Shown here: positions 943 through 11,979 of the stretch, one piece after another | Position numbering within the stretch: position 1 is the stretch's first letter | Layout: the number at the start of each line of letters is the position of its first letter | Source of the DNA: Alphaproteobacteria bacterium | GTDB lineage: Bacteria > Pseudomonadota > Alphaproteobacteria > Caulobacterales > Aquidulcibacteraceae | DNA: 33,137 bases | Assembly (NCBI GenBank): GCA_027488965.1 | Contig: JAIYAO010000034.1 | Span: forward strand, 1-33,137 | Direction of reading: 5' to 3' | Position numbers and translations under genes: made by a program | Notes under the pieces: generated by a model | Database searches by the model: none | What the model saw: the letters and a program-made list of their open reading frames with translations, nothing else | Told to the model about the DNA's origin: nothing

Positions 943-1527
943 ATGAACGACGGGAGATCCGGCGTACGTCCCGTGCGCTGGATCTCGCTGCCGATCGGGA
1001 GAAGGCCAGTGCCTGTGTCGCGCTTCCTGCTCGTCTGCTTGATGGTACTGGCGGTGGCCCGGCCCGGTGCAGTGCACGCCGATCCGGTGAACACAGCAGA
1101 GCTGTCGCAGGATGGCGAAGAGCTGGTCGCATCGATCACGCAGGAACTGGCGGGCAACCGGGCCGATGTCGCTCAGACAGGCGCACGCAACACCCTCGAG
1201 CTAAGCCAGGCGGGTGCGTCACATGCGTCCGTGCAGCAGATGGGCGCCGGCAATAGCGCAACGGTCACGCAGCGCGCGGCCTGGGGGGCTTTGTCCCATA
1301 TCAGCCTCATCCAGCATGGTGAGCAAAACACCGCGAGCGTGCTGCAGGAGGGGGCTGGCAACGAGGCGATCCTGCTGCAGGATGGCGCCCAGAATGGGAT
1401 CGATCTTGTCCAGCTTGGCGGCGGCAATGCGCTGACGCACCAGCAGGTCGGCGTCGACCTGCAGCTCGTGGTGACCCAGATGGGCGGCGCAACAATCGCG
1501 ATCACGCAGACAGGGCCTGCCCCGTGA
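943..1527 (+). CDS. Small secreted curlin-repeat protein (CsgB/CsgA-like)
   Basis: After a hydrophobic signal segment (residues ~26-47, FLLVCLMVLAVARP then an AVHA cleavage-like site), the ~145-residue mature region has repeated curlin strands: ELSQAGASHASVQQMG, NSATVTQ, NTASVLQEG and VVTQMG. Length and repeat number fit E. coli CsgA/CsgB. A plausible role is fibre subunit or nucleator for the larger curlin protein encoded just upstream. The ATG at 943 gives an unusually long N-region. GTG at 1015 is an alternative: it has a GGGAGAAGG Shine-Dalgarno about 9 nt upstream and starts directly at the signal peptide. The 3' end overlaps the next gene by 4 nt (GTGA), indicating an operon. The family is clear; nucleator versus subunit cannot be decided. 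Confidence 0.8.
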   Translation: MNDGRSGVRPVRWISLPIGRRPVPVSRFLLVCLMVLAVARPGAVHADPVNTAELSQDGEELVASITQELAGNRADVAQTGARNTLELSQAGASHASVQQMGAGNSATVTQRAAWGALSHISLIQHGEQNTASVLQEGAGNEAILLQDGAQNGIDLVQLGGGNALTHQQVGVDLQLVVTQMGGATIAITQTGPAP

Positions 1528-2259: not shown

Positions 2260-3378
2260 ATGAATCGGCGGAAGTTCCTAGCCTACGGCATGATGGGCGG
2301 CGCGGTCACGGTGCTCGGCGCTACGGAAAGCGCCGTCGGACAAGTCGCCCCCACCGTCGTGTACGAACTCGATATCGAGCCTGTCGATGTCGAGATGATC
2401 GACGGCAAAAAAGTCTACATGCTGCTCTATTACAGTCGCGGTAGCGGTACGCCGACGCCGCGGCCCGTGCTGACAGCGACGGAGGGGGACCGCGTCACCA
2501 TCCGCGTGCGCAACAATGCGCCGGAAGCCCACCGTTTCCAGATCCCGGGCGTGACCGGCGCCAGCATCACGTCGATCCTCCCCGGCAGGACCCGCGAGGT
2601 CACGTTCACCGCGCCCGTGGGCGGCACCTATCTTTACCTCGACCCGCTCAATGCGCCGGTCTATCGCCTTCTGGGCCTGCACGGCGCCTTCATCGTCAAA
2701 CCGAAGAACGGCGGCCTGACCCTGGGCGGCAAGCCCACGCCCTACAGCACGTCGATGCACACGCCGGCGCTCAACGCCGTGTTCGATGCGTTCGGCACAC
2801 CGCGCTTTCCAGGCAATCCCTGGGTTCCCAACGGCATTGGACGCGATCTGATCTGGCTGTTCTCGCAGGTGGACCCTGCCCTGAACCGCAAGGTGGAGTT
2901 GGGTCAGGTGGTCGATCCGGCCTCCGTAGTCAGCACATTTGTGCCGCGCTATTTCACCATCAATGGCCTCAGCGGGTTCGATCTCGACGGCGACGACACA
3001 GTCTGCCCGAAAGGCTACGAGGGCCAGCCGACGCTGATCCGCACGCTTAACGCGGGCCTCGCGCGCCACTCTCCGCACATCCACGGCAATCACGTCATGC
3101 TGCTCAGCGGCGTCAGGACCAATGGTCAGATCGTCGTGCGCGACAACATCTTCGAAGTGGACGTCTGGTCGATGGCTCCGCTGGAGCGGAAGGACGTTCT
3201 CCTGCCGTTCGAGAAGCCGCCGGATGTTCCGGCCGCCAAGTGGCCACCCGTGCAGGAGCCGTTCCCGATGCGGTATGTCATGCACTGCCACACGGAAATG
3301 TCGCAGACGGCCGGCGGCGGGAACTACCCGCAGGGTCTTGTCACACACTGGGAATTGCTGGGTCCGCGTCAGGTCTGA
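2260..3378 (+). CDS. Multicopper oxidase-like protein, Tat-exported (chain A)
   Basis: 372 residues. The N-terminus MNRRKFLAYG followed by a hydrophobic stretch is a twin-arginine signal, implying folded export to the periplasm; this fixes the ATG at 2260. Residues ~60-140 form a cupredoxin fold, but the usual first-domain copper motifs are gone: the HxHG position reads AHRFQIPG (H91) and the HSH position reads YLYLDPL. The C-terminal cupredoxin (~210-370) keeps HSPHIHG (H270, H273, H275) and HCH (H342, C343, H344), the type 1/2/3 ligand motifs of a terminal MCO domain. The second type 1 His, expected three residues after HCH, is S348. It lies 33 nt before a second MCO-like gene that carries the missing first-domain ligands. 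The substrate is unknown; copper or Mn(II) oxidation are candidates. Confidence 0.85.
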   Translation: MNRRKFLAYGMMGGAVTVLGATESAVGQVAPTVVYELDIEPVDVEMIDGKKVYMLLYYSRGSGTPTPRPVLTATEGDRVTIRVRNNAPEAHRFQIPGVTGASITSILPGRTREVTFTAPVGGTYLYLDPLNAPVYRLLGLHGAFIVKPKNGGLTLGGKPTPYSTSMHTPALNAVFDAFGTPRFPGNPWVPNGIGRDLIWLFSQVDPALNRKVELGQVVDPASVVSTFVPRYFTINGLSGFDLDGDDTVCPKGYEGQPTLIRTLNAGLARHSPHIHGNHVMLLSGVRTNGQIVVRDNIFEVDVWSMAPLERKDVLLPFEKPPDVPAAKWPPVQEPFPMRYVMHCHTEMSQTAGGGNYPQGLVTHWELLGPRQV

Positions 3379-3411
3379 CGCTACAACTGAATTGGAAAGG
3401 CCGACTGAGTC

Positions 3412-4437
3412 ATGGCTGGGCAGACGATCCCCTTCGAGGAAACAGGCGTTCTCGGCGAACTGACGTTCGACACGTTCGGCTGCAACGTGTTCAAGGCGGA
3501 CAATCTGCCGACGCCGGATCGTCTGGAACCCGACATCTTCTTCGAGCGGGGCGTCCGCTTCGGCATGAACCTGCGCACGCCGGATGGGAAGACCATCGAG
3601 GTCTGGCGGTTCGAGGACGAGCTCAACCCCCGCGAAGTGTGGCCTTCGCCGCCGATCCGTGTGCGCGTCGGCCAGATCGTGCATTCGAAAATTTACGCAC
3701 GAAACAATACCCACACGATCCACCACCATGGTATGGAGCCGACCACGTTCAACGATGGCGTGGGGCACGTCTCCTTCGAGGTGGGCGATACCTACACCTA
3801 TCAGTTCCAGCCCAGCACGCCCGGAACCTATTTCTACCACTGCCACAAGAACACCGTTCTCCACTTCGAAATGGGGATGTACGGGCTTCTGATCGTGGAT
3901 CCCCCTGAAGGGCCGGGCTACCTGTACTCTGGCGGTCCCCGCTACGACGTGGAGACGGCTTGGGTTGCGGATGATCTTGATCCCAAGTGGCGCGAACTGG
4001 GCCACAGCGCAGGCCTCTGCGGCGAGGATGCCGGGCTGAACGTCTTCAAACCGAAGTACTTCGTGATCAACGGCGTGTTCGCGCCGAACACCATGTACGA
4101 CCCGCGCGTGTCCATGCGCATTGCGCGCGGCAAGACGGGTTTGATTCGCTTGTTGAACGCCAGCTACTCGGTTCTCTCGGTGACGCTGGGTGTGGATGTG
4201 CAGTGCGTCGCATACGACGGCCACGGCCTGGGCACCAGGAATAACCCATGGTGCCGTCCCTTCACTATTCGCGCCGGCACGCCGATCGAGCTGACGACCG
4301 CATCGCGCTGCGATCTCCTCGTGAAGCCGACACGCCAGGGCGTCTATCCGGTCCGCATGGAGTTCCGCGACTGGATCACTGGTGCGATCCAGGACGAGGG
4401 CCGCGGGATCGCCGAAACCCAGATCGTGGTGACCTGA
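3412..4437 (+). CDS. Multicopper oxidase-like protein without signal peptide (chain B)
   Basis: 341 residues. After a ~75-residue N-terminal extension, a cupredoxin domain carries HTIHHHG (H101, H104, H106) and YHCHKNTVLHFEMGMYG (H143, C144, H145, H151, M156). These are first-domain trinuclear-cluster ligands plus a Cys/His/Met set resembling a type 1 site, though HCH-x5-H is two residues longer than the usual HCH-x3-H. Residues ~195-340 form a copper-free middle-type domain (KYFVINGVF, GLIRLLNASY, PIELTTASRCDLLV). There is no Tat or Sec signal, unlike chain A. The family is normally 450-600 residues with three domains in one chain, so A and B look like complementary parts of one enzyme. The stop overlaps the Sco start by 1 nt. 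The family is clear; assembly with chain A is inferred. Confidence 0.85.
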   Translation: MAGQTIPFEETGVLGELTFDTFGCNVFKADNLPTPDRLEPDIFFERGVRFGMNLRTPDGKTIEVWRFEDELNPREVWPSPPIRVRVGQIVHSKIYARNNTHTIHHHGMEPTTFNDGVGHVSFEVGDTYTYQFQPSTPGTYFYHCHKNTVLHFEMGMYGLLIVDPPEGPGYLYSGGPRYDVETAWVADDLDPKWRELGHSAGLCGEDAGLNVFKPKYFVINGVFAPNTMYDPRVSMRIARGKTGLIRLLNASYSVLSVTLGVDVQCVAYDGHGLGTRNNPWCRPFTIRAGTPIELTTASRCDLLVKPTRQGVYPVRMEFRDWITGAIQDEGRGIAETQIVVT

Positions 4438-5099
4438 TGCGGGTGCTTACGGCCTTCGCTGCCGCCACGGCGCTGCTGCTGGCTGCGGGTATTGCGGGCG
4501 CAGAGGCGCCTAAGTCGAACCATACCCATTCGCGGCCCGATCCGGCGACCATGGGCGGCACGTACGCCCTCCGCGATATCGCCGGTCGCACCGTGACGTC
4601 CGATAGCCTCAAGGGCCGTTGGACGCTGTTCTACTTCGGCTACAGCCGCTGCACCGATACGTGCCCGCTGGCGCTGCCCACCATCGTGGAAGCCGCCCGC
4701 ACGCTCAACCAACGCGGCATCCCCGCACGGGCCGTGTTCGTCGATATAGAGCCGCCGTCCGGTACGATCACGCCCCGCAATCCCGGCATCGCGCCTACCC
4801 AGCACGGCCATCACGGCGCCAGCAACGACGGCGCCGCCATGACCGAGATCGCCCAGCGCTTTGCCGGCGGTCTGCTTGTGCTCACCGGATCGCGCAGCCA
4901 GCTCAACGCGGCGACCGTGGCCTTCCAGGTGCGTCGCGAGCATACGCCGCCGCGTCCCCTGGAAAAGGGACACTCGATCAACCACACGTCGTTTATCTAC
5001 ATTGCGTCCCCCACCGGGACCGTCACGGGATACCTGCCGTACGATGCGCCGCCCGCGAACGTGGTCCGGGCGGTGCGTGACAAGGCTTCGGGCAGCTGA
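4437..5099 (+). CDS. SCO1/SenC-family copper chaperone
   Basis: 220 residues with a Sec signal (LTAFAAATALLLAAGIAGAEA). The thioredoxin fold carries the Sco copper site CTDTC (C72, C76) and the conserved distal His (H183, NHTSFIYI). Sco proteins bind Cu and pass it to, or reduce cysteines of, copper enzymes, classically the CuA site of cytochrome oxidase. Here it overlaps the end of the MCO chain B gene by 1 nt, so its likely client is the MCO pair. Between strand VFVDIEPPSG and helix AAMTEIAQRF there is a His-rich insert (PTQHGHHGASND) in place of the usual DPERDTPE segment, possibly an extra metal site. A second, more typical Sco is encoded at 15675. Confidence 0.9.
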   Translation: MRVLTAFAAATALLLAAGIAGAEAPKSNHTHSRPDPATMGGTYALRDIAGRTVTSDSLKGRWTLFYFGYSRCTDTCPLALPTIVEAARTLNQRGIPARAVFVDIEPPSGTITPRNPGIAPTQHGHHGASNDGAAMTEIAQRFAGGLLVLTGSRSQLNAATVAFQVRREHTPPRPLEKGHSINHTSFIYIASPTGTVTGYLPYDAPPANVVRAVRDKASGS

Positions 5100-5103
5100 G
5101 GTC

Positions 5104-5523
5104 ATGCGGGCGGCGATCGGTCTCTGTGCGTTCGTCCTGACGGTCGCCGCCGGCACGCTCTCTCCCGCGTGCGCCGTCGTCGCCGTACGTGAGACCAGCA
5201 TTGCCGAGGGCGAAACGTTCGAACTCAGTCCCTTCGCCATCGAGGTGCGCTTCTCGCAGGCCGTGCAGCTCGTGAATGCGCGCCTTGTCGATCAGCAGGG
5301 CCGCGAGGCGCCGCTGGATCTGTCGTTTTACCGCACCCCGGCCCAGGCGTTCGTGATCGAGCTGCCCGTCCTTCCGCCGCACGGCTATCGCTTCGCATGG
5401 CGCGTGCGCGGCGGGCAGGGACCCGACCAGCAGGGCTCCATCGGCTTCATCGTGAAGGGCTGCGAGGATCCGCGCGCCGTGGCGGCCACCGCACGCGCAG
5501 CCGCGCCGGCCCGTCGCCCCTAG
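5104..5523 (+). CDS. CopC-like periplasmic protein, ligands not conserved
   Basis: 139 residues: a signal peptide (IGLCAFVLTVAAGTLSPACA) followed by a ~95-residue beta-sandwich-like region. It shows the CopC/PcoC pattern: FELSPFAIEVRFSQAVQLVNARLVD and a terminal GYRFAWRVRGGQGPDQQGSIGFIV. CopC domains normally bind Cu(II) through an N-terminal His of the mature chain and a His in a S-x-D-G-H-P loop. Here the mature N-terminus has no His, and the loop reads RGGQGPDQQG. It may therefore bind copper differently or act structurally. It is the last gene of the MCO-MCO-Sco operon, 4 nt after Sco. The fold assignment is moderately confident; function is not shown. Confidence 0.65.
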   Translation: MRAAIGLCAFVLTVAAGTLSPACAVVAVRETSIAEGETFELSPFAIEVRFSQAVQLVNARLVDQQGREAPLDLSFYRTPAQAFVIELPVLPPHGYRFAWRVRGGQGPDQQGSIGFIVKGCEDPRAVAATARAAAPARRP

Positions 5524-6183
5524 GCGGGCGAGTACGGTTCGCCGGACAGCCGAACTGCCACCGCCAACTCCCCCAATGTGCACTACCGTACCGTGGCTGA
5601 CGCTCACCGCGCAGAGGGCAAAACGATTGGCATGATGCTTGTGTCCGTAACCGCCTCGGCCATTGCGCCTGTCATCCAATTCACGGAAACGTGATCGCCT
5701 CTTGAGCAACTGCAGCGGGCGCCAGTTGCGAACTGTTCTGACTGTTCGATGCTCACAATCCATCGCGTGCCGCGCGAGCAATCCATCGGCGCGCGCGTTC
5801 GAGGCGAACCATATCCGCACCACGCGAAGCTTTCGCGTGCTGGACGACGCGCGATGTAAACGCGACGGAGGTCGTCGATCGCGCGAGCGCAACAGAGTTG
5901 TGCCGCGCAGCGTTGTGAAAGATGTGCTTGCATACGTTCTGTCGCACTCATTGCCGCCGCTGCGGAGCGATCGGTGCTCGTGATCAGCTATTGAGAGCGC
6001 AGACGACGCCACAGCACTCCATGCACCTGCGAGGCGAGTGGCGATGCACGCGATACACCTTGCAGGACGTCGACGAAGTTAACAGCGCGCCATATCGGTT
6101 TCGCCCATAACGCTTCGCGCGGAATTGGCCCTTGGGGCCGCCGGTTTGCGGATCATTGGCGAAGCGCAGTTGTGGGGATCGCC
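5524..6183. other. 660-nt non-coding region upstream of the haem peroxidase
   Basis: No open frame here has a ribosome site or protein-like composition; the short ORFs on both strands are Arg/Ser-rich shadows. Base composition is more balanced than in the flanking genes. It contains a perfect 8-bp inverted repeat at 5821-5839 and a small GC hairpin at 6127-6139 (GGCCC-TTG-GGGCC), about 45 nt before the peroxidase start. It probably holds the end of the copper operon and the promoter and control sites of the peroxidase; a small RNA is possible but unsupported. Confidence 0.5.
5821..5839. promoter_or_regulatory. Perfect palindrome CACGCGAA-GCT-TTCGCGTG, putative operator
   Basis: An 8-bp perfect inverted repeat with a 3-nt spacer lies in the long gap between copC-like and peroxidase genes. 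There is no T-tract, so a terminator is unlikely. A dimeric regulator site is the simplest reading, but the regulator is unknown. Confidence 0.35.
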
Positions 6184-9100
6184 ATGGTTACGCTTATTCG
6201 TTCGGATCTCGAGTTCATCCTCGCGCAGATCAAGATTTCCGAAGCGCACGCGGCGGGGGCTTCTCTCACCAGCCTGATCCCGAACACGGAGCTGCCGTGG
6301 GGCCTGCGCACGGTCGATGGGCGCGACAACAACCTGCTGCCGGGGCAAAGCGAGTTCGGCGCCGCTGACATCGAGTTTCCGCGCGCCCTGCACCCGTTCT
6401 ACCGCGACGACCAGGACGGCGACTCCTTCGACTTCAACGGCCCGACCCAGGAAGGCGGCCTCGTCGTCAACACGAACTACGGCGCGCTCGGGACCAACGT
6501 TGCAGACGCCGATCCGCGTATCATCTCCAACCTTATCGTCGACCAGACCCCGAACAATCCGGCGGCCGTGCTCGCCGCGCTGAAGTTTGCCGGGTCGGAG
6601 GATCCGACCGCCGATCTCGCCACGTTCCAGGGCGCCTACACGCCGATGAAGTCCGCGATCGCTGCGTCCAACGCCGCCGACGCGGCTGCAGCGAGCGCGC
6701 TTGCTGCGCTGAACGCCGCCATCGCGCAGGGCCAGCCCCCGGAAGTGATCGCGCCGCTGCAGCAGGCCTCCGACACCGCCGCCGCCGTGGCGACGACTGC
6801 GGCTGCGCTTGAAGTGTCCACGACGGCAACGTTCACCAACGTCTATACCGATCTCGGCCTCACCATCGAGAACGGTTCCCTGGTCATCCCGAACGTGGCG
6901 GCGGACGAGGGCCTGTCGGCGCCGTTCAACTCCTGGATGACGTTGTTCGGCCAGTTCTTCGATCACGGCCTCGACCTGGTGGCGAAGGGCGGGGCGGGCA
7001 CCGTCTACATGCCGCTGTCGCCGGACGATCCGCTCTATGTGCCGGGTGGCCGCACCAACTTCATGGTGCTCACGCGCACCACGCTGACGGACGGCGAAGC
7101 GACGAACCTGACCACCTCCTGGGTGGACCAGAACCAGACCTACACGTCCCATCCCTCGCACCAGGTGTTTCACCGCGAGTACGTGCTGAACGCCGATGGA
7201 AAGCCGGTGGCCACCGGGCGGCTGCTGAACGGCGCCGACGGCGGCATCGCCACCTGGGCCGAAGTGAAGGCGCAGGCGCGCAACCTGCTGGGCATCGAGC
7301 TTGACGACGCCGATGTCACCGACCTCCCGCTGCTGGCGACCGACCAGTACGGCAAGTTCATTCCCGATCCCGACACGGGCTTTGCCCAGATCGTCGTGGC
7401 CGCTGGCCCGCCGCCCGTGCTCGTTTCGGGGACGCCCGGCAGCCCGGTGGATGCCTCGCTCGCACTCCGCACCGGCCACGCCTTCCTCGACGATATCGCC
7501 AACAGCGCCGGCCCTGTGTTCGTCAACGGCGTGCTCGCGCCGGACGCGGACGATGTCGCCGGCAATGCGGTGCCGACCAATCCCAACACCGGCCAGCGGC
7601 TGGCGTACGACGACGAACTGCTCGACGCGCACTACATCACGGGCGACGGTCGCGGTAACGAAAACATCGGCCTGACCGCCGTGCACCACGTCTTCCACTC
7701 CGAGCACAACCGGATGGTGGAGCAGATCAAGGGCATCGTGCTGGCCACGCAGGACCAGGCGTTCATCGCCGAATGGCTGCTCCCCGGGGCCAATCAGGCC
7801 GACGGCGTCGACGCTCTCGAATGGAACGGCGAGCGCCTCTTCCAGGCGGCCAAGCTCCCCACCGAGATGCAGTACCAGCACCTCGTGTTCGAGGAATTCG
7901 CGCGCACCGTGCAGCCGCTGGTGGACGTGTTCAACGACTACAACGCAACGATCGATCCCTCGATTCTCGCGGAGTTCGCGCACGTCGTCTATCGTTTCGG
8001 CCACTCGATGCTGACCGAGACGCTGGACCGCTTCGACGAGAACTTCGAGGTGGTGGGCGACGCTGATCCGAATACGCCGGAAGCCGAGCAGCTGACGCTC
8101 ATCGGCGCGTTCCTCAATCCGCTCGAGTTCGTGGCCAGCGGCGTGGACGCCGACGCGGCAGCGGGCGCCATCGTGCGCGGCATGACCCGTCAGCGGGGCA
8201 ACGAGATCGACGAGTTCGTCACGGACGCCGTGCGCAACAACCTGCTCGGGCTGCCGCTCGATCTGGCGGCCATCAACATCGCCCGCGGCCGCGAGACGGG
8301 CGTGCCGTCCCTCAACGCCGCACGGCGCGAGTTCTTTGCAGGCTCCGGCGACAGCCAGGTCCGGCCGTACACCAGCTGGGCCGACTTCGCGCTTTATCTG
8401 AAGAACGAAGCATCGGTAATCAACTTCATCGCCGCCTACGGCACGCATGAGGTGATCACCAACGAGCTGACCACCGAGGGCAAGCGCGCCGCAGCCATGG
8501 CGATTGTGTTCGGCACGGATCAAGTTCTTTCCAGCGGTCGGACGATCCAGGCGCCCGAGGACAGCGTCGCGTTCCTGAACAGCACCGGCGCATGGGCCAA
8601 CATCGCCGGCGGCGTGACCATCTCGGGACTCGACGACGTCGACCTTTGGATCGGCGGCCTCGCCGAGAAGAAGATGATCTTCGGCGGCATGCTGGGCTCG
8701 ACGTTCAACTTCGTGTTCGAGAACCAGCTTGAAGCCCTGCAGAACGGCGACCGGTTCTACTACCTGTCGCGTCTGGCCAACACGAACCTCACGGCGCAGC
8801 TTGAGAACAACAAGTTCGCCGAGATGATCCACCGCAACACGGATGCCACGCACCTGCCTGGCAACGTGTTCAGCACGCCGGACTACATTCTGGAGATCAA
8901 CCAGAGCCGCCAGTTCAACGGCGACCTCGGCAGCGCTGACCCGACCGGCGGTACGATCCTCAACCCGCTCGTTATCCGCGGGCCCGGCTCCATCCACTAC
9001 ACCGGCGCCGAGCACGTGGTTCTGGGCGGCACGGAAGGCAATGACACGATCACCGGCGGCCTCGGTGACGACACCATCTGGGGCGACGGCGGCGACGACC

Positions 9101-11979
9101 GTCTTGAGGGCGGCGAAGGCGTCGACTTCATCTTCGGCGGCGAAGGCGACGACGTCATCACCGACCTCTTCCTCGACGATGAAATCCGCTCCGGCGGCGG
9201 CAACGACGTCGTCAACAGCGGCCCGGGCTTCGACCTGATCATCACCGATACGGGCAGCGATTACGTCTACGGTGGGGAAGACCTCCACGAAGTGCTTGCC
9301 GGTCAGGACAACGACTGGGTGATCGGCGGCGAGGACCAGGACTTCATCGTGGGCGGTGAGGGCGACGACTGGCTGGAAGGCGGCGGCGCCAACAACCTGC
9401 TGCTGGGCGACAACGGCGACCTGATCCAGGGCCTGCCCATCAAGATCGGCGTGCTGGGGCTGCAGGTCGGCCACGACGTGCTGCTCAGCGGTTCCGGCAA
9501 CGAAGACTTCGATGCCGAGGGCGGTGACGACATCATGGTCGGCGGCCTCGGTACGGACCGGTACTTCGGCCAGCAGGGCTTCGACTGGGTGACGCACAAG
9601 GACGATCCGTACGGCGTCGAGGCCGACATGGAGATCCGTCTCTTCGCGCCGCCGCCGCTGCCGGGCTCGCCGGGGTCCATCCTCGATCGCTACGCCACGG
9701 TGGAAGGCCTCTCGGGCTCCCACCACTCCGACATCCTGCGCGGCGACAACGAGACGACGTTTGTGGACAACGAGCTCGTCCGCATCTCGCTGATCGACGG
9801 CCTCCAGGACTTCCTGGGCGCAGGCGTCCTCGAGTTCTCGGCCGGCAACATCATCTTTGGCGGTGACGGCAGCGACCTCATCGAAGGCCGCGGCGGCAAT
9901 GACCTGATCGACGGCGACCGCTGGCTGAACGTGCGCATCAGCGTGCGGGAGAACGTCGACGGCACCGGGGCGGAACTGTTCACCCTCGACCGCATGACGG
10001 ACTCGCTCAGTGAAATGATGCTGACCCGTCAGCTCAACCCCGGCCAGCTGCGCATCGTCCGCGAGATCCTGATCGCCGACGCCACCAACGATGTGGACAC
10101 CGCACTCTTCACCGATGTGCGCGCCAACTACATCATCGAAGGCGAGAACGGCGTCGTCGTCGCCGAGGACATCGACGGCGATGGGTTCATCACCGTCACG
10201 CACAGCATCGCGGGCGTGATCGGCTCGGACGGGGTGGACAGGCTGAAGAACATCGAGCGCCTGGCGTTCGCGGACCGCACCCTCAACATCGGGCCGAGCA
10301 CCAACGATCTGCCGGTTGGGCTCGCAACCATCAGCGACACGACCCCGACCGAGGACCAGATCCTGACCGCATCGCTCGCCAACGTGCGCGATCCGGACAA
10401 CACGGCGACGGCCGGCGTCATCTCCGGACCCATCGGGGTGTTCTGGCAGGTCGAGCTCGACCCGGGCACGGGCATCTTCACGGACATCGAGGTGGAGCTT
10501 GCGGGCGAAGTCGTGCCGGCCTCCGGCCTCACGTTCGCGCCGACGGACAACGAGGTGGGCCTGCGTCTGCGGGCGCGGGTGATCTACGAGGATCAGGAAG
10601 GCGTCATCGAGACGGTGTTCTCCGCGCCGACGGCGGCGGTGGCCAACGTCAACGACCTGCCTGTGGGCACGGTGTCCGTTTCCGACACCTCGCCGACGGA
10701 AGGGTCCCTCATCACCGCCTTCAACAACCTCACCGACGCCGACAGCGGCGGCGTGGCTGCGGGCGCCTTGCCCGTCACCTACCAGTGGCAGCAGTCGGTC
10801 AACGGCAGCAACGTCTGGACGAACATCGCGGGCGCCGTGGTGTCCTCGTTTACGCCGGGACCCGCCCAGGTGGGGCGCCTTCTTCGCGTCGTCGCCACGT
10901 ACACGGATGGCCAGGGCACGGTGGAAACCAGGCCATCGGCCCCGACCGACATCGTCGGCGATCTGATCATCGGCACCAACACCAACGCCACGCACAACGG
11001 CACGGCCGGCGCCGACTTCATCGACGGCCAGGGCGGTGCGGACATCCTCAACGGGCTTGCCGGTGATGACATCCTCATCGGCGGAGCCGGAAACACCGCA
11101 GACAGGCTGGACGGCGGCCTCGGCGCCGACCGGATGGAAGGCGGCAACGGCAGCGACACATATGTCGTGGACAATGTCGGCGATGTGGTGGTCGAGGAGC
11201 TCAACCAGGGCGCCGCGGACGTGGTGCAGACCACGCTCAACACCTACACGTTGCCGGCCAACGTGGAACGGGTCGACTTCGTCGGAACCGGCGACTTCGT
11301 CGGCACGGGCAATGCACTCAACAACGTGCTTGCCGGCGGCTCCGGCAACGACACGCTGACCGGCGGCGGCGGCAACGACACCTACATCGGCGAGGGCGGC
11401 GACGACACGTTCGTCATCTCGACAAACACCGCCACCATCACCGAGACGGCGGCGGGCGGCATCGACACGGTGCTGGCTTCGGGCGCGTCCTTCACGCTGG
11501 GCGCCAACGTGGAGAACCTCACCTACGTGGGCGCGGGCAACTTCACCGGAAATGGCAATACGGCCGCGAACATCATCACCGGCGGCGGCGGCATTGACGA
11601 CCTCTCCGGCGGCGGCGGCGCAGACCAGATCTTTGGCGGCGGCGGTGCTGACATCCTCAATGGCGACGGCGGCAATGACATCATCACCGGCGGCGCCGGC
11701 AACGACGTCATGGCTGGCGGCGGCGGTGCGGACACGTTTGTCTTCGAGGCGGGCTTCGGCGCCGACCGGATCACGGGCTTCGGCTTCAACGCCGGCGCCA
11801 CCCAGGATCTGCTCGACATCTCGGCCCTCGGTGTGACGGCGGCGGACTTCGACACCCGCGTGACGATCACCGACCTGGGCGCCCACATCCTCGTGACGCT
11901 CGATACCGGGGACTCGATCCAGTTGGACAACGTGAACCTGCCGACGAACATCACGTCAGCGGATTTCATCCTCGCCTGA
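6184..11979 (+). CDS. Giant animal-type haem peroxidase with RTX repeats (MopA-like)
   Basis: 1931 residues from ATG 6184, which has GGGGA 5 nt upstream; GTG 6172 is an in-frame alternative. The N-terminal ~900 residues are an animal haem peroxidase. They have the distal site GQFFDHG (Q257, D260, H261), catalytic GDGRGNE (R490, E493) followed by SEHNRM, and proximal YRFGHS (H607). H607, R490 and the two haem-linking acids match the myeloperoxidase pattern, so the enzyme should be active. Glycine-rich GGxGxD calcium-binding RTX repeats follow, then two Ig-like modules (nt ~10306-10950), more RTX blocks and a C-terminal end ...SADFILA typical of type I secretion substrates. This architecture matches MopA-type Mn(II)-oxidising peroxidases of Aurantimonas and Erythrobacter. 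Likely secreted, Ca-dependent and possibly Mn-oxidising; the substrate is inferred. A strong terminator follows. Confidence 0.92.
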   Translation: MVTLIRSDLEFILAQIKISEAHAAGASLTSLIPNTELPWGLRTVDGRDNNLLPGQSEFGAADIEFPRALHPFYRDDQDGDSFDFNGPTQEGGLVVNTNYGALGTNVADADPRIISNLIVDQTPNNPAAVLAALKFAGSEDPTADLATFQGAYTPMKSAIAASNAADAAAASALAALNAAIAQGQPPEVIAPLQQASDTAAAVATTAAALEVSTTATFTNVYTDLGLTIENGSLVIPNVAADEGLSAPFNSWMTLFGQFFDHGLDLVAKGGAGTVYMPLSPDDPLYVPGGRTNFMVLTRTTLTDGEATNLTTSWVDQNQTYTSHPSHQVFHREYVLNADGKPVATGRLLNGADGGIATWAEVKAQARNLLGIELDDADVTDLPLLATDQYGKFIPDPDTGFAQIVVAAGPPPVLVSGTPGSPVDASLALRTGHAFLDDIANSAGPVFVNGVLAPDADDVAGNAVPTNPNTGQRLAYDDELLDAHYITGDGRGNENIGLTAVHHVFHSEHNRMVEQIKGIVLATQDQAFIAEWLLPGANQADGVDALEWNGERLFQAAKLPTEMQYQHLVFEEFARTVQPLVDVFNDYNATIDPSILAEFAHVVYRFGHSMLTETLDRFDENFEVVGDADPNTPEAEQLTLIGAFLNPLEFVASGVDADAAAGAIVRGMTRQRGNEIDEFVTDAVRNNLLGLPLDLAAINIARGRETGVPSLNAARREFFAGSGDSQVRPYTSWADFALYLKNEASVINFIAAYGTHEVITNELTTEGKRAAAMAIVFGTDQVLSSGRTIQAPEDSVAFLNSTGAWANIAGGVTISGLDDVDLWIGGLAEKKMIFGGMLGSTFNFVFENQLEALQNGDRFYYLSRLANTNLTAQLENNKFAEMIHRNTDATHLPGNVFSTPDYILEINQSRQFNGDLGSADPTGGTILNPLVIRGPGSIHYTGAEHVVLGGTEGNDTITGGLGDDTIWGDGGDDRLEGGEGVDFIFGGEGDDVITDLFLDDEIRSGGGNDVVNSGPGFDLIITDTGSDYVYGGEDLHEVLAGQDNDWVIGGEDQDFIVGGEGDDWLEGGGANNLLLGDNGDLIQGLPIKIGVLGLQVGHDVLLSGSGNEDFDAEGGDDIMVGGLGTDRYFGQQGFDWVTHKDDPYGVEADMEIRLFAPPPLPGSPGSILDRYATVEGLSGSHHSDILRGDNETTFVDNELVRISLIDGLQDFLGAGVLEFSAGNIIFGGDGSDLIEGRGGNDLIDGDRWLNVRISVRENVDGTGAELFTLDRMTDSLSEMMLTRQLNPGQLRIVREILIADATNDVDTALFTDVRANYIIEGENGVVVAEDIDGDGFITVTHSIAGVIGSDGVDRLKNIERLAFADRTLNIGPSTNDLPVGLATISDTTPTEDQILTASLANVRDPDNTATAGVISGPIGVFWQVELDPGTGIFTDIEVELAGEVVPASGLTFAPTDNEVGLRLRARVIYEDQEGVIETVFSAPTAAVANVNDLPVGTVSVSDTSPTEGSLITAFNNLTDADSGGVAAGALPVTYQWQQSVNGSNVWTNIAGAVVSSFTPGPAQVGRLLRVVATYTDGQGTVETRPSAPTDIVGDLIIGTNTNATHNGTAGADFIDGQGGADILNGLAGDDILIGGAGNTADRLDGGLGADRMEGGNGSDTYVVDNVGDVVVEELNQGAADVVQTTLNTYTLPANVERVDFVGTGDFVGTGNALNNVLAGGSGNDTLTGGGGNDTYIGEGGDDTFVISTNTATITETAAGGIDTVLASGASFTLGANVENLTYVGAGNFTGNGNTAANIITGGGGIDDLSGGGGADQIFGGGGADILNGDGGNDIITGGAGNDVMAGGGGADTFVFEAGFGADRITGFGFNAGATQDLLDISALGVTAADFDTRVTITDLGAHILVTLDTGDSIQLDNVNLPTNITSADFILA
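9028..9432 (+). repeat. First RTX (GGxGxD) calcium-binding block
   Basis: Tandem nonapeptide motifs such as GGTEGNDTI, GGLGDDTIW, GGEGVDFIF, GGEGDDVI and GGEGDDWLE form the parallel beta-roll that folds on Ca2+ outside the cell. The block directly follows the peroxidase domain. Confidence 0.85.
10999..11739 (+). repeat. C-terminal RTX blocks
   Basis: Three clusters of GGxGxD nonapeptides (about 10999-11170, 11323-11418, 11575-11736) alternate with beta-strand linkers (NVERVDFVGTG, NVENLTYVGAG). They end just before the type I secretion-like C-terminal tail. Confidence 0.85.

Follow-up and report, generated by a model that had tools for sequence, protein, structure and literature searches.

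Models of multicopper-oxidase evolution assume that symmetric trimers of two-domain chains, with several clusters, were converted into asymmetric one-cluster proteins by way of duplication and site loss. Two-domain oxidases build the cluster from domain 1 of a protomer together with domain 2 of the adjacent one, and in type C it is the N-terminal domain that carries the type-1 copper (PMC13151041). In six-domain bacterial oxidases such as MnxG, domains 2 and 3 share the trinuclear site, and those of the MnxG/MofA kind carry a type-1 site in domain 2 (PMC3600357). MnxG needs the small accessory subunits MnxE/F (PMC5622069). Export of signal-less subunits as hitchhikers is known as well, for instance from E. 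coli PaoABC (PMC4273604). A heteromeric or split multicopper oxidase was not found described in the literature searched, where absence proves little, and the same literature yielded no report of a multicopper oxidase exported by Tat hitchhiking.

The present study deals with two adjacent genes, A and B, on contig JAIYAO010000034.1 of a bacterium of the Caulobacterales (assembly GCA_027488965.1). The whole stretch of DNA that was analysed, 33,137 nucleotides long, is referred to as the window. Sequence comparisons and structural models suggest, with a probability of roughly 0.82, that A and B are two different subunits of one secreted hetero-oligomeric multicopper oxidase derived from a duplicated two-domain oxidase.

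Results

Gene A (positions 2260-3378, forward strand) and gene B (3412-4437, forward strand) are separated by 33 nt. Their translated open reading frames of 372 and 341 amino acids both match Pfam Cu-oxidase_3 (1.2e-7 and 1.5e-12, respectively). A sequence-only reading of this DNA had described them as two adjacent oxidase genes with complementary copper ligands, and both the reading frames and the residue numbers proved correct. Subunit A consists of a Tat-type signal (MNRRKFL), a ligand-free cupredoxin domain 1 and a domain 2 with the half-site H273/H275/H342/H344. Subunit B is without a recognisable signal; its domain 1 combines the half-site H104/H106/H143/H145 with the type-1 ligands H101/C144/H151/M156 and is followed by a ligand-free domain 2.

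The next gene encodes a SCO1/SenC-family protein (copper chaperone/thioredoxin-like; 4437-5099, forward strand; Pfam SCO1-SenC 2.6e-22), and its start at 4437 overlaps the stop codon of B. It is followed by the gene of a CopC-domain protein of 139 aa (5104-5523, forward strand; Pfam CopC 5.7e-8), which is probably the last member of one copper-handling operon comprising A, B, SCO1/SenC and CopC. A SCO homologue lies directly downstream of B in 12 alphaproteobacterial loci, i.e. the window and 11 others. Together with CopC in the window, this arrangement suggests a role in copper loading or copper stress. Flanking genes of the loci were called by codon usage and these calls are still rough; longest-ORF calls gave many antisense ORFs in GC-rich loci. 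Upstream of A, the window contains genes for two adjacent curlin-associated-repeat proteins (12-941 and 943-1527, forward strand), and a curlin-repeat protein is likewise encoded upstream of the pair in locus L040.

Conservation of the copper ligands was evaluated in 37 A and 39 B sequences. H273, H275, H342 and H344 of A are invariant (37/37), and so are E346, N277 and Y356 around the HxH pairs. As had been proposed from the sequence, A keeps terminal-type motifs and has lost the first-domain ligands: at the positions matching the B ligands, domain 1 of the window's A has Q94, P96, L127 and P129, no conserved His pair exists there, and His is found at position 127 in 9 of the 37 sequences only. 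Domain 2 of A lacks the second type-1 His, its C343 is kept in 25/37 only, and domain 1 of A has no type-1 ligands. In B, the residues H101, H104, H106, H143, C144, H145 and H151 occur in all 39 sequences, and the axial position 156 is occupied by M in 23 and by L in 16 of them. By its ligand pattern, domain 1 of B holds a complete predicted type-1 site, H101-C144-H151-M156, beside half a trinuclear site. The sequence-only reading had missed this type-1 site but rightly reported that B retains its first-domain motifs (His in 39/39) and that its second domain is copper-free; there are no ligands at the positions corresponding to those of A.

In every relative, the domain-1 half-site is absent from A and the domain-2 half-site from B, and the non-complementary ligand positions are free to vary in the 37 A and 39 B sequences. 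Four histidines from A and four from B add up to the eight that a trinuclear cluster has. The eight cluster histidines suggested earlier hold in this form, with four from each half-site; H270 of A, kept in 32/37 only, and C343, present in 25/37 and replaced by D, S or G in the remainder, fall outside the eight.

The best single-sequence matches of A domain 1 in PDB and NCBIfam are nitrite reductases, as would be expected if the pair were a variant copper nitrite reductase whose subunits share no more than a mononuclear type-2 site. However, H-C-H and HTIHxH in B (39/39 at His and Cys) form the two-His-each pattern of a trinuclear site, to which A adds two HxH pairs (37/37), and the best PDB profile matches of B are type-C two-domain oxidases (3g5w, 6.2e-25; 2zwn, 1.6e-23). 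NirK itself, whose single type-2 copper between subunits takes one His from beside the type-1 Cys and another from domain 2, is ruled out by the B H-C-H and A HxH motifs, and a variant of it is extremely improbable. We also regard it as very improbable that B is the enzyme and A a non-catalytic export escort or structural partner. Such a division of labour would fit the only Tat signal being on A and the type-1 copper on B, the better conserved of the two chains, but an escort would have no need of the HxH pairs, E346, N277 and Y356, all kept throughout the A family, and domain 2 of B has no ligands with which to complete a cluster with another B.

Homology and the structural model agree that A and B are each a complete two-cupredoxin-domain protein, in which domain 1 of A and domain 2 of B are present but have lost their ligands. 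A profile comparison of the two families by hhalign gave an alignment from domain 1 into domain 2 (99.4%, 1.6e-21). A single-chain two-domain oxidase from Deinococcus ficus, which has both half-sites and a type-1 site in domain 1, aligned over domain 1 into domain 2 with A (6.9e-23) as well as with B (3.5e-30). As A and B share homology with each other and with a one-chain two-domain oxidase, the simplest history is a duplication followed by complementary loss of half-sites. From their anatomy, A and B thus look like paralogues of a type-C two-domain oxidase that have lost opposite half-sites. A split three-domain oxidase is ruled out by the mutual homology of A and B and by their homology over both domains to the two-domain oxidase.

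Because B follows A in the same reading frame across the 33-nt gap, the pair could be folded as one chain with the TGA read as W. The read-through was purely a means of modelling both chains at once; no claim is made that it takes place. AlphaFold2 predicted the window's read-through chain of 725 residues with a mean pLDDT of 89.5 and a pTM of 0.90, the linker being below 50, and that of a Nitrospiraceae pair (L063) with a pLDDT of 84.4 and a pTM of 0.88. With VIA-align, ceruloplasmin 1-697 was superimposed on residues 31-725 of the window model (518 residues, 4.2 A) and on residues 44-788 of the Nitrospiraceae model (512 residues, 4.2 A). Structurally, B was matched best by a type-C two-domain oxidase (Z 24.4, 2.4 A). 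The four domains appear to be placed like ceruloplasmin domains 1-4, a layout that the artificial tether between A and B may favour. Domain 2 of A is predicted to pack on domain 1 of B as ceruloplasmin domain 2 does on domain 3, where the tether could again bias the model. By the pseudo-symmetry of ceruloplasmin, its 2/3 interface corresponds to the 6/1 interface, where its cluster is located.

Foldseek placed ceruloplasmin and MnxG at the top ranks for both models, MnxG (9bxa) being first for the Nitrospiraceae and third for the window model. These ranks, and the location of the trinuclear site of six-domain bacterial oxidases at the boundary of domains 2 and 3, which corresponds to the order A-B (PMC3600357), might indicate that the pair represents domains 1-4 of a six-domain oxidase of the MnxG/MofA kind, shortened and/or split into two genes. 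This scenario would alter the history only and leave the mechanism the same. We consider it conceivable but unlikely, because the type-1 site of those enzymes lies in domain 2 and that of A-B in domain 3, and the sequence match to MnxG is not significant (E 0.11) compared with 6e-25 for the match of B to two-domain oxidases.

To follow the pair through other genomes, B loci were gathered from a one-genome-per-species collection with B alone as bait. In all 38 loci obtained, a relative of A is located directly upstream on the same strand, at a distance from B between -17 and about 300 nt. The pair occurs in alphaproteobacteria, Desulfuromonadia, Nitrospirae and Acidimicrobiia. Within the family of the window, A and B are present in the same 4 of 60 genomes, one of which (REEB506) contains three adjacent A-B pairs. 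Two copies are located on Indioceanicola plasmids. The tree distances of A and B at 34 loci correlate with r = 0.849, the largest value among 2000 permutations being 0.30, and 15 of 31 bipartitions are common to both trees.

Class- and phylum-wide genome searches, in which the top few candidates were scored per genome, found the pair to be rare. Under this scoring and apart from the window's own genome, no A candidate exceeded 85 bits phylum-wide and no B candidate about 110 bits class-wide. Two A candidates of 80-85 bits with long ORFs (G583, G704) and three B candidates of 91-110 bits (G047, G164, G266) were provisionally taken as other oxidases. A scan of viral contigs with the A alignment returned zero relatives. 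The rare and scattered occurrence of the pair suggests horizontal transfer.

Several loci contain additional or damaged copies. L069 has a tandem A-B-A', after which the next B begins and reaches its HTIHWH motif before the contig stops. At about 4850-6000 of L072, a decayed second pair was observed, in which a deletion has fused an A-like Tat signal to the C-terminal part of a B-like sequence. The window's own genome (G000) contains a second A-like gene (C132:60-1139, 60% identity) and a second B-like gene (C169:3-614, 62%), each cut at or near a contig end; the two are probably members of a second pair that an assembly gap has separated. In the Hyphomonadaceae loci L041 (about 5174-5261) and L042, A is distributed over two overlapping frames with different break points next to an intact B, owing to assembly error or decay.

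Fused versions had been suggested as worth a search, and one frame-disturbed A-B fusion came to light on a plasmid of Arthrobacter sp. FW305-BF8 (L079 7150-7250). There, the frame of A stays open into the N-terminal portion of B until a 1-nt shift; two overlapping genes are annotated, and the shift may be a sequencing error, a programmed shift or a mutation. The continuous frame up to the shift implies that a single ORF joins A and B in the usual order, or did so until recently. Plasmid pTC1 of Paenarthrobacter aurescens (L098 5398-6978) encodes an A-like Tat protein with all four cluster histidines beside mntH, and a search of that plasmid for B was negative. It is the single exception to the expectation, formulated with the sequence-only reading, that neither gene would regularly occur alone.

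The A without a neighbouring B on pTC1 would be explained if each chain acted alone as a homo-oligomer, with B serving as a type-1-copper electron carrier or holding an incomplete cluster, A binding copper independently and their neighbourhood reflecting no more than co-regulation. Two-domain oxidases and nitrite reductases are in fact homotrimers. As neither A nor B has both half-sites, however, a homotrimer of either would have no complete cluster, and yet the four cluster histidines are invariant in each chain. The strict linkage of A and B, their co-divergence, the fused form and the lack of an export signal on B also argue against separate homo-oligomers, which we judge improbable.

An RRx[FLIVMW] Tat motif is present in 33 of the 37 A sequences; among the remaining four, three have start codons picked too far downstream and one reads RRAAL. 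The N-termini of the B proteins show no strong hydrophobic segment, except that an alternative upstream start in three Rhizobiales loci (L050, L051, L054) would add a hydrophobic stretch that could be a signal of its own. A copper cluster shared with the Tat-exported A would imply that B leaves the cytoplasm with A. The signal-less B is thus probably exported together with the Tat-bearing A as a folded hitchhiker.

Discussion

The notion of one oxidase divided between two genes survives in a modified form. Linkage at 38/38 loci, co-divergence and the structural model make it very probable that the two chains meet in one cluster, but the pair is not a divided three-domain oxidase.

We propose that the ancestor was a type-C enzyme whose trinuclear cluster was always completed where domain 1 of a subunit met domain 2 of the next. 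After the duplication, A would have kept the domain-2 half-site only and B the domain-1 half-site together with the type-1, electron-entry copper. With the halves divided in this way, a working cluster could form only at the contact between A domain 2 and B domain 1. Substrate electrons would enter at the type-1 copper of B and travel along the H143-C144-H145 bridge; at the trinuclear cluster they would reduce O2 to water. The complex itself, its copper content and its oxidase activity are deduced. Folded B would be carried out of the cytoplasm by means of the Tat signal of A, and the neighbouring SCO and CopC proteins may serve copper loading. The stoichiometry might be AB, A2B or other; in a ring of three subunits there would be room for no more than one complete cluster.

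Gene neighbours hint at metal or peroxide chemistry and provide a tentative lead to a metal-ion substrate such as Mn(II), although we regard this as doubtful; any naming of a metal ion, perhaps Mn(II) or Cu(I), is a guess. Downstream of the pair, the window encodes a 1935-aa protein (6172-11979, forward strand) that combines an animal haem peroxidase domain with RTX calcium-binding repeats, a MopA-like architecture. Relatives of this gene also follow A-B in four further alphaproteobacterial loci of Hyphomonadaceae or related bacteria (L043, L046, L048, L067). The Mn(II)-oxidising MopA belongs to this kind of animal-haem-peroxidase RTX protein (PMC6247904). A di-haem CCP/MauG protein is encoded near the pair in four deltaproteobacterial-type loci. 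An Nramp (mntH) transporter gene adjoins both the Arthrobacter fusion and the A gene of pTC1, and in Arthrobacter the Nramp metal transporter is accompanied upstream by a DtxR-type regulator.

The A-B pair looks like the evolutionary step from a symmetric trimer to an asymmetric protein caught as separate genes, and the idea is therefore directly testable. If true, the pair would offer a clean natural test of the order of copper loading, subunit assembly and Tat export. It also holds a warning: annotating one gene by itself ('multicopper oxidase domain-containing protein') or expressing a single gene would yield a dead enzyme. In broader terms, it is reasonably likely that the pairs constitute an obligate hetero-oligomeric family spread over several phyla, with one cluster, four histidines per paralogous subunit and a signal-less catalytic half carried by its partner through Tat, and that they arrived at the asymmetric one-cluster architecture of MnxG and ceruloplasmin independently, by way of two genes.

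Compared with the homotrimeric type-C two-domain oxidases (2zwn, 3g5w), the similarities are two cupredoxin domains per chain and, in B, a type-1 site in domain 1 with the spacing H...HCH......H....M/L; A is without a type-1 site. In contrast to these enzymes, neither chain combines both half-sites, which are placed on two proteins. Three-domain laccase/CopA carries its four copper motifs on a single chain and its type-1 copper in the last domain; this class is ruled out, as in A-B the motifs extend over two chains and the type-1 site is in domain 1 of B. The resemblance to Tat hitchhiker complexes such as PaoABC lies in one subunit with a Tat signal and a co-encoded, signal-less partner, whereas co-export of A and B is deduced only. 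In ceruloplasmin, domains 1-4 match the predicted four-domain layout of A-B (about 515 residues, 4.2 A), but it is a single six-domain chain whose cluster lies between domains 1 and 6, with type-1 sites in domains 2, 4 and 6. With MnxG and the MofA-like oxidases of Leptothrix, the pair shares the order of half-sites, a second-domain type followed by a first-domain type, so that the order regarded as reversed in the sequence-only reading is no anomaly (PMC3600357). It differs from them in having two chains and four domains instead of one chain and six, and a type-1 copper in the third domain (domain 1 of B) instead of domain 2; unlike A and B, the MnxE/F subunits of MnxG are not oxidase-like. 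In its predicted mode of action the pair nevertheless resembles both the two-domain and the MnxG-type enzymes. The order of the half-sites is a known solution; what is new is that two genes share them.
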